This document shows, piece by piece, positions 15,783-28,027 of a stretch of 35,031 nt of DNA; position 1 is the stretch's first letter, and every line of letters begins with the position of its first letter. Both the position numbers and the translations under genes were made by a program. A model generated the notes under the pieces. The model was given only the letters and a program-made list of their open reading frames with translations. It had not been told where the DNA came from and made no database searches. Origin of the DNA: a virus; the IMG/VR virus record IMGVR_UViG_3300042914_000150, positions 1-35,031 of that record; one strand, written 5' to 3'.

Positions 15783-16211
15783 ATGCTAACTAGAAAAAGA
15801 GATATATCAATAAGACAGTTAAAGGAGCTTTATTATGCGCAACGCAACACACACTTGCAGCTTCACGAAATGATGCAGCAGTTAGGGTTGTTAGGCATAG
15901 AAGATAAAGAGCCTTTGGGTTTAGACATTGGTGCAAGAACGATTGTCAAATTGGTAGACGAAGAGTTTGAGTGCGATGTTCTGGTAAAGGATAGGAGCTT
16001 AAAAACAACGTTCGGTCGCAAGGCTGCTGCTTATTTACTAAGAAGGTACACAAAGTTGAGCCTCAAAGAGATAAGCCAGTACACAGGAACAAGCGACCAC
16101 ACGACTGCTATCCATAACATAAAACAAGCGAATAACCTAATTGAAACTGAGGATTGGTTTAAAACAAAGCTAAAAAAACTTTGTATAAAATTAGAACTTA
16201 AAGAGATTTAG
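15783..16211 (+). CDS. DnaA domain IV-like protein without ATPase
   Basis: This 142-residue protein has an N-terminal helical region and a C-terminal DnaA DNA-binding domain: RKAAAYLLRRYTKLSLKEIS, then the signature GTSDHTTAIHNIK (DHTT at 105-108). In cellular DnaA this domain reads the DnaA box. No Walker A/B ATPase is present, so it is not a stand-alone initiator; it may bind the phage origin and recruit host factors, or act as a regulator. A stop is followed within three bases by a promoter element for the downstream RNA. Confidence 0.8.
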   Translation: MLTRKRDISIRQLKELYYAQRNTHLQLHEMMQQLGLLGIEDKEPLGLDIGARTIVKLVDEEFECDVLVKDRSLKTTFGRKAAAYLLRRYTKLSLKEISQYTGTSDHTTAIHNIKQANNLIETEDWFKTKLKKLCIKLELKEI

Positions 16212-16213
16212 TG

Positions 16214-16221
16214 TATATTTG
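16214..16221 (+). promoter_or_regulatory. Promoter -7 element before the structured RNA
   Basis: TATATTTG matches TAnnTTTG exactly and starts two bases after the DnaA-like gene stop. The expected -33 position reads TTAG (about 16191-16194) rather than TTG, so strength is uncertain. Predicted RNA start is about 16227-16230. Confidence 0.5.
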
Positions 16222-16227
16222 CAGATA

Positions 16228-16322
16228 TAAAAGACGCATAGACGAAGTACGAACCGACTATGTGTTTAGTGGTTAAATAATAATAGCCCTGATAGTTCGT
16301 ACCTATCGGGGTTTATTTTTTT
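16228..16322 (+). ncRNA. Candidate structured RNA or attenuator with kissing hairpins
   Basis: Hairpin 1 pairs 16232-16241 with 16258-16267 (10 bp including two G-U) and has a 16-nt loop. Hairpin 2 pairs 16287-16295 with 16303-16311 (9 bp, one G-U) around the 7-nt loop TTCGTAC. All seven loop bases are complementary to GTACGAA (16247-16253) in loop 1. Hairpin 2 is followed by TTTATTTTTTT (16312-16322), a terminator tract that ends directly at the ATG of the next gene. This predicts either an approximately 95-nt stand-alone RNA or a leader controlling the replication protein. Confidence 0.55.
16286..16322 (+). terminator. Intrinsic terminator directly before the replication gene
   Basis: Stem CCCTGATAG with CTATCGGGG, extendable by G-U and A-U pairs, loop TTCGTAC, followed by an 11-base T-rich tract. 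The ATG at 16323 begins immediately after the tract. Confidence 0.8.
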
Positions 16323-17111
16323 ATGGCAAAACGATTTACAGACACGGAGAAATGGAAAAAACCTTTTATCCGTAAACTATCAGCACCTTACAAACTTTTA
16401 TGGCTTTACATCTGTGATGACTGCGACCACGCAGGAATCTGGCAAGTAGATATTGATGTAGCCAGAATAAGAATAGGCGAGGATATTAACGAGCAAGATG
16501 CGGTTAAATTTTTTGGAGACAAGCTGGTAAGGATTGATAACGGAAATAAATGGTATATACCTTCCTTTATAGATTTTCAATATCCAAGCGGACTTAACCC
16601 AGACAACAAAGCACACGGAGGAATCATCAAAATTTTACAAAAATACAATTTGTTAGATGATGAATTTAAGCCCCTTGTAAGCCCCTTATATGGTGCTATG
16701 GATATGGATAAGGAAATGGATATGGATAAGGATAAGGTAATGGTAAAGAAAAAACTTGCAGAAAATACAAATTCAAAATGTACTTTTGAAGAGGTTTACG
16801 AATATATGGCAATCCGTATAGGAACAGAACAGGCAAAGGTAGAAGCCGAAAAATTTGTAAATTACTACACGAGCAACGGGTGGAGAGTAGGTAAGAACCC
16901 AATGAAAAGTTGGACACACGCAGTAAATAATTGGATAACAAACGCTAAACAATATGCAAAAGGAACTTCAAATAATCAACGAAAACTTGATAAGCACGAA
17001 CTCGAAAACCTTAAAAACTACAACTTTATCTACTCTACTTCCTACGGAGCAGGAGATTATGACCGCATTTTCGGGGGAGAGAGTCCGGAATCTAAACTCT
17101 ATCATATTTAA
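16323..17111 (+). CDS. Replication initiator/replisome organiser-like protein
   Basis: This 262-residue protein begins MAKRFTDTEKWKKPFIRKLSAPYKLLWLYICDDCDHAGIW, which matches the N-terminal domain of phage replication proteins in Bacteroidota. Residues 126-144 are a low-complexity linker (MDMDKE MDMDKD) made by an 18-bp tandem duplication. The C-terminal domain (about 150-220: FEEVYEYMAIRIGTEQAKVEAEKFVNYY ... NPMKSWTHAVNNWI) resembles the DNA-binding/DnaT-like domain. It probably binds the origin and recruits host helicase. Its end overlaps the following gene. Confidence 0.75.
   Translation: MAKRFTDTEKWKKPFIRKLSAPYKLLWLYICDDCDHAGIWQVDIDVARIRIGEDINEQDAVKFFGDKLVRIDNGNKWYIPSFIDFQYPSGLNPDNKAHGGIIKILQKYNLLDDEFKPLVSPLYGAMDMDKEMDMDKDKVMVKKKLAENTNSKCTFEEVYEYMAIRIGTEQAKVEAEKFVNYYTSNGWRVGKNPMKSWTHAVNNWITNAKQYAKGTSNNQRKLDKHELENLKNYNFIYSTSYGAGDYDRIFGGESPESKLYHI
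16698..16733 (+). repeat. 18-bp tandem duplication in the replication gene
   Basis: ATGGATATGGATAAGGAA (16698-16715) is followed by ATGGATATGGATAAGGAT (16716-16733), differing in the last base. It codes for MDMDKE/MDMDKD in the linker and may vary in length between strains. Confidence 0.85.
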
Positions 17112-25644: not shown

Positions 25645-25672
25645 TTGCAACAAGGTTACAAAAATATATTTG
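25645..25672 (+). promoter_or_regulatory. Candidate promoter after the terminase gene (upstream)
   Basis: TTG (25645-25647), 17 bases, then TATATTTG (25665-25672), an exact -7 match. It begins one base after the terminase stop and overlaps the second palindrome copy. Confidence 0.55.
25646..25660. promoter_or_regulatory. Palindromic operator candidate, copy 2
   Basis: TGCAACAAGGTTACA has the same arms as copy 1 except for one base and is followed by AAAATAT. It overlaps the -33 element of the upstream promoter, an ideal repressor position. See 13506-13520. Confidence 0.6.
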
Positions 25673-25699
25673 GTGGATTGTGTAGAACTTGTATATTTG
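25670..25699 (+). promoter_or_regulatory. Candidate late promoter
   Basis: TTG (25670-25672), 19 bases, then TATATTTG (25692-25699): an ideal Bacteroidota promoter layout. Transcription should start near 25706, 20 to 25 bases before the first small ORF at 25728. Confidence 0.7.
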
Positions 25700-27979: not shown

Positions 27980-27984
27980 GACCG

Positions 27985-28017
27985 ACCCTGCCAATTTTGG
28001 TGGGGTTAGTTATTTTT
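27985..28017 (+). terminator. Intrinsic terminator after the chaperone gene
   Basis: ACCCTGCC (27985-27992) pairs with GGTGGGGT (27999-28006), including two G-U pairs, around a 6-nt loop. TTATTTTT follows at a short distance. It separates chaperone transcripts from the tail genes. Confidence 0.7.
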
Positions 28018-28027
28018 AGACCTTCCT

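Follow-up and report, generated by a model that had tools for sequence, protein, structure and literature searches.

The 111-base gap between two phage genes, one for a 142-aa protein that carries a DnaA C-terminal DNA-binding domain and the other for a 262-aa replication-module protein, encodes a small RNA with two hairpins whose loops are complementary to each other. That this kissing-loop structure is real is near certain, and the loop-loop pairing is preserved by evolution, as judged from the sequences of relatives; conservation and covariation settle the RNA element as real. Its probable role is to adjust the level of transcription of the replication gene, and the function we infer for it, with a confidence just above even, is that of a cis-acting leader that attenuates transcription of the replication-initiation operon. 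The window, i.e., the whole stretch of DNA analysed, is the virus record IMG/VR IMGVR_UViG_3300042914_000150 (positions 1 to 35,031; 35,031 bases).

Anatomy of the element and chance controls

The features of the locus are as follows.

15783 to 16211, plus strand: upstream gene, 142 aa, DnaA C-terminal DNA-binding domain
16191 to 16194, plus strand: TTAG, a -33-like element separated by 19 nt from the -7 box
16214 to 16221, plus strand: -7 box TATATTTG, exact match to the TAnnTTTG element (Bacteroidota-type promoter)
16233 to 16266, plus strand: hairpin 1, with a 9-bp stem (16233-16241/16258-16266), then a 1x1 mismatch, CG/CG (16243-16244/16255-16256) and a 10-nt loop
16247 to 16253, plus strand: loop-1 kissing sequence GTACGAA (complementarity and covariation)
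16267 to 16284, plus strand: linker with the GTTTAGTGGTTAAAT core, conserved across type A
16285 to 16313, plus strand: intrinsic terminator hairpin, 11 pairs including G-U (16285-16295/16303-16313), 7-nt loop
16296 to 16302, plus strand: kissing sequence TTCGTAC of loop 2, which fills the whole terminator loop and is complementary to loop 1
16312 to 16322, plus strand: terminator T-tract, ending directly before the ATG at 16323
16323 to 17111, plus strand: downstream replication-module gene, 262 aa, matching PHROGs of unknown function

An earlier note on this DNA had described an exact TAnnTTTG element, two hairpins, a GTACGAA stretch complementary to the whole 7-nt loop of the terminator, and a T-tract ending exactly at the next ATG, all of which are in place; its hairpin 1 had to be redrawn, in that the 9-bp stem stands and the inner 2-bp CG/CG extension had been counted as loop. 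Transcription is expected to start near 16226-16230 from the TATATTTG box, and most transcripts would end as a stable RNA, about 92 nt long, that has a hairpin at either end. Early on it was suggested that the region yields either a small RNA of about 95 nt or a kissing leader ahead of the replication gene; these are probably not alternatives, since the terminated product of the leader would be that RNA.

The element folds more stably than expected by chance (z = -3.1; 0 of 200 shuffles as stable), and its terminator has the most pairs and the most G-C pairs among 11 terminator-like sites between 10 and 28 kb. A loose descriptor of kissing hairpins, applied to all loci, gave too many chance matches, and a scored version with shuffles was used instead. 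By this score the hairpin pair is the top kissing candidate on both strands of the whole 35 kb (33.1 vs 26.1 for the best unrelated site), and none of 400 shuffles of the region reached 33.1. Elsewhere in the window, two tandem TATATTTG boxes lie behind the terminase gene at 25665-25699, the second with TTTG 19 nt upstream, and this is a consensus Bacteroidota-type promoter, probably for the genes after it. At 27981-28018 a hairpin followed by T-rich sequence, overlapped by a weak match to the type-A model, is probably an ordinary terminator.

Relatives, covariation and further forms

Homologues of the form present in the window (type A) were gathered by scans of viral contigs with the two flanking proteins and the linker as queries. 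Loci overlap and contigs recur, such that copies do not equal independent phages; the distinct core sequences number 61. Perfect loop-loop complementarity of 7-8 nt is found in 242 of 246 copies. Six loop pairs occur: GTACGAA, CTGCGAA, GAGCGAA, CTACGAA, AGTCCAG and AGTCGAG, each with its complement. Three of the remaining four copies carry one loop-loop mismatch, L203 and L114 being the same contig; such copies are seen at L273:155-242, which looks like a recombinant in which hairpin 1 of one allele is joined to the terminator of another, and at L203:579-670.

The covariation check on the intergenic regions of relatives, proposed in the earlier note, was carried out on an alignment of 59 distinct type-A sequences. 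With the kissing included, 98.7% of the cells of the full structure are paired; the values are 99.2% for hairpin 1 and 97.7% for the terminator hairpin, with three compensatory pairs each. The kissing helix itself is 99.5% paired, as compared with 26-33% in slid controls, and five of its seven pairs have changed on both sides with no one-sided change; these counts treat related sequences as separate and thus overstate the independent events, so that the number of loop pairs, at least 20 different ones over all forms, is the safer measure. Taken with the covariation of type C, this places the loop-loop pairing of the proposed structured RNA under strong selection.

The promoter is kept along with the structure. 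The -7 box TATATT[TC]G is present in 285 of 285 type-A copies, and TTG or TTAG stands 19 nt upstream of it in 42 of 50 distinct promoters (TTG in about half). The ATG follows the start of the T-run by 6-15 nt in all type-A copies measured. The GTTTAGTGGTTAAAT core of the linker is invariant in the alignment, partly as a selection effect of collecting copies by that very core; a divergent copy found by protein (L467) has TTTTAGTGGTTAAGTAATA in its place. In each of the ten type-A records that are near-complete, the phage has a single strong copy. The host of these phages is probably a member of the Bacteroidota, as inferred from the promoter type and the phage setting.

The feature is more widespread than is visible from the window alone. 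Further kissing RNAs of little or no sequence similarity precede related replication genes as well as two other replication modules that turned up beside type A, and the same layout of promoter, hairpin 1, linker, terminator and ATG precedes at least three N-terminal modules of replication genes. Type B, with the loops GTGGAT/ATCCAC, is probably related to type A, since the type-A model detects it (E 1e-4 to 1e-3); at the place of the candidate antiterminator of type A it carries a linker hairpin whose pairs change together. Type C comprises 68 copies with 30 distinct cores and 9 loop pairs, all with perfect complementarity of at least 7 nt; the promoter box TAnnTT[TC]G is present in 67 of the 68, several gene classes occur both upstream and downstream, and the second hairpin is nested inside a longer terminator stem. 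In an alignment of 12 type-C sequences all cells are paired, with compensatory changes in 3 of 7 kissing pairs, 3 of 4 pairs of hairpin 1, 5 of 6 of hairpin 2 and 2 of 4 of the outer terminator stem. Types D (L360), E (L362), F (L475) and G (L487), as well as L482, are represented by single or few examples each. In a shuffle test of types B to E, the observed kissing score was reached by 0.5-2.3% of shuffled regions each for B, C and D and by none for E; types with single or few examples therefore rest on layout and position as much as on score. Type G repeats the fine architecture of the type-A hairpin 1, and L471 and L486, as possible further types, were left out of the count. The type-F RNA has a tRNA gene some hundreds of bases upstream of it (L475:249-321).

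As regards the neighbouring genes, the product of the 262-aa gene gave no Pfam match; its C-terminal part recurs in relatives after other N-terminal modules. These modules are swapped among at least three unrelated types (16323-17111 and relatives), namely RFTDTEKWKK, MAKDPAFLFY and MAKDTFYFS, the last similar to DUF4373 proteins. In many relatives HNH or GIY-YIG nuclease-like genes sit exactly between the T-tract and the replication gene (e.g., L168, L349), and the junction of RNA and replication gene, 16323 in the window, is a hot spot of gene swapping. The RNA is kept while the 3' neighbours (type A) or the neighbours on both sides (type C) change. In some relatives a protein gene stands directly before the replication gene and the RNA is absent; a small protein gene, HTH-like by eye, replaces the RNA in L050-L058, L061, L064, L079 and L080. 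Of the two genes between which the earlier note placed the element, it is the downstream replication gene to which the RNA is linked; the DnaA-like gene is always upstream of type A and not upstream of type C, and in other phages RNAs of this kind come after genes unrelated to it.

Searches beyond these phages returned little. In Rfam 15 the window gave no match at gathering score, with weak sub-threshold matches only, and the RNA of types A to G and of L471, L482 and L486 likewise gave no match at that score, tRNA being all that was found; no cobalamin aptamer of the corrinoid riboswitch kind was matched. The class looks viral, since models of types A and C found nothing convincing in 296 Bacteroidota genomes. 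Six weak matches were obtained there, and the stretches read among them were plain terminators or coding-like sequence; at L587:1450-1580, in a Bacteroidota genome, the kissing descriptor gives a high score to a terminator region through an AU-rich match, GCTTTAA. Upstream of the related replication genes of Pseudanabaena phage Pan5, Flavobacterium phage 1/32 and Porphyromonas phage005b a kissing RNA was not found. A scan of genome contigs returned only seven distant replication proteins, and no such RNA was recognised upstream of the six that were checked.

Candidate modes of action

The terminator lies between promoter and gene, with no other promoter between. Since the gap from T-run to ATG is too short for a promoter, every transcript that carries the start codon of the replication gene, whether begun at 16214 or further upstream, has crossed the terminator; the element is thus in effect an attenuator. 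A polymerase starting from TATATTTG would make hairpin 1, then the conserved linker and then the intrinsic terminator. The linker may pair first with the 5' arm of the terminator (UAGUGGUUA with UAGCCCUG), which would delay termination for as long as the terminator has not closed; the outcome would then be fixed by the kiss with hairpin 1, which most likely stabilises the terminator as soon as loop 2 emerges. A phage factor, a host factor or the concentration of the RNA could shift read-through and with it the dose or timing of the replication proteins.

The candidate antiterminator, 16267-16275 with 16284-16291 in the window, has moderate support. Such pairing is possible in 12 of 12 distinct terminator arms (-3.7 to -7.1 kcal/mol), and shuffled linkers are as stable in 0.7-4% of cases for 11 arms and in 11% for one; it does not covary in type A and rests mainly on the unvarying linker, which counts against it. 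When transcripts are cut off at loop 2, the pairing of loop 1 with loop 2 around the candidate antiterminator hairpin is preferred in several alleles, as drawn by a program that cannot represent pseudoknots. Judged from sequence, kissing could promote either outcome; the terminator is favoured over the antiterminator on the model of the Priestia megaterium corrinoid riboswitch (PMC10653944).

Attenuation is supported by the loop-loop covariation, which was set against slid and shuffled controls and is seen in two families of unrelated sequence, by the shared layout, the kept promoter box, the short gap between T-run and ATG and the single copy per phage, as well as by the ability of all 12 arms to pair with the linker and by the covarying linker hairpin of type B. 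Against it stand the unrelated HNH and GIY-YIG genes directly after the RNA and the related phages in which a small protein gene replaces the RNA and the replication gene is kept; furthermore, attenuation by itself leaves the many discrete loop alleles without explanation.

The changing neighbours may also point to a free-standing small RNA, a stable 92-nt product that acts elsewhere via its linker or a protein and owes its position to packing. Its own promoter and terminator, its retention next to exchanged genes (on the 3' side in type A, on both sides in type C) and the recurrence of the linker core in every type-A copy are all consistent with this, yet it appears rather unlikely: the next gene invariably starts 6-15 nt after the end of the RNA, sequence-unrelated forms recur before replication modules, which a free RNA does not need, and the linker differs in types C to G. 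Antisense targets of the linker were sought in the window, and only exact matches of 9-10 nt, the longest complement being 10 nt, were found.

A further conceivable design is a family of attenuators whose terminator loop is recognised by a hairpin on the RNA itself or on a sister RNA, the loops having diversified into specificity groups that keep the replication-gene control of co-infecting phages free of cross-talk; this proposal is unlikely. Self-sensing, in which loops pair between RNAs, existing RNA shifts the termination of the nascent leader and alleles form incompatibility groups like those of plasmid copy control, is kept alive at low probability because a cis role leaves the discreteness of the alleles without explanation. 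The 20 or more loop pairs, the 7-nt type-C loops that are fully complementary on both sides and the type-A kissing helix, free of G-U pairs and one-sided intermediates as if specificity had been selected, would fit; with both loops on one RNA, however, cis pairing should win, and neither a second RNA nor an allele-specific extra target was found in phage flanks totalling about 1.5 Mb. Octamers of each phage's own loop allele showed no excess there beyond the element itself, which speaks against a trans-target of the loops. Minus-strand TAnnTT[TC]G boxes that might drive a second RNA across the leader occur within the next gene at 16645, 16806 and 16841; none has a -33 TTG at 17-23 nt, and no convincing antisense promoter was seen.

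An RNA that alters RNA polymerase after its synthesis, like HK022 put, for processive antitermination of the early operon would have about the right size, two hairpins and a nearby promoter; it is very improbable, as a put-like structure has no terminator, whereas the second phage hairpin is one with a T-tract, the loops kiss and their sequences vary freely. A DNA-level element, with the loop octamers as inverted protein sites of an operator or origin and the hairpins incidental, is already disfavoured and scarcely credible: the loops are inverted repeats in DNA and a DnaA-like gene is adjacent, but the stems around both loops covary with G-U pairs allowed, the T-tract is on one strand only, the alleles do not recur elsewhere in the genomes and type C is not adjacent to a DnaA-like gene.

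Comparison with known systems

In antisense-RNA attenuators and copy-control RNAs of plasmids, such as the ColE1 RNA I/II, pT181 and icsA-RnaG systems, kissing of complementary loops controls a leader, often that of a replication gene and with many specificity alleles, and the loops reside on two RNAs from opposite strands; the phage element, in contrast, has both loops on one sense RNA. Packaging RNA of the phi29 type is likewise a phage RNA with covarying complementary loops, which pair between molecules in the packaging ring, whereas the present element adjoins replication genes and ends in a terminator. The present phage RNA, with its conserved kissing loop on a terminator, is apparently undescribed.

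The put RNA of HK022 consists of two stem-loops in ~70 nt, and kissing is not mentioned for it in PMC9378689. It shares with the present element the small size, the two stem-loops and the proximity to an early promoter; unlike it, putRNA acts on RNA polymerase, does not end in a terminator hairpin and has no kissing described.

The recurring design is one in which forms of little or no sequence similarity share a slot before replication-initiation genes and a single tertiary contact. If attenuation is indeed the function, phages would possess a compact, RNA-only way of setting replication-gene expression. The element would then also be a natural test bed for the effect of a loop-loop contact on intrinsic termination, which was named previously unknown for transcriptional riboswitches (PMC10653944); the covariation supplies ready-made pairs for swap and rescue, and with the models other viromes can be screened for the class. 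Another close comparison is the corrinoid riboswitch of Priestia megaterium, in which kissing promotes termination (PMC10653944). In both, a loop of the upstream leader kisses a loop in the expression-controlling part and shifts terminator formation, an effect that is presumed for the phage RNA. In the L5-L13 contact of the riboswitch, however, the partner belongs to P13, a stem of its own next to the terminator, the base pairs that matter number 3-5 and a large ligand-binding aptamer is required (PMC10653944), whereas in the phages the loop sits on the terminator itself or on a hairpin nested within it, the match extends over 6-9 bp, an aptamer-sized domain is absent and the loops vary from phage to phage.
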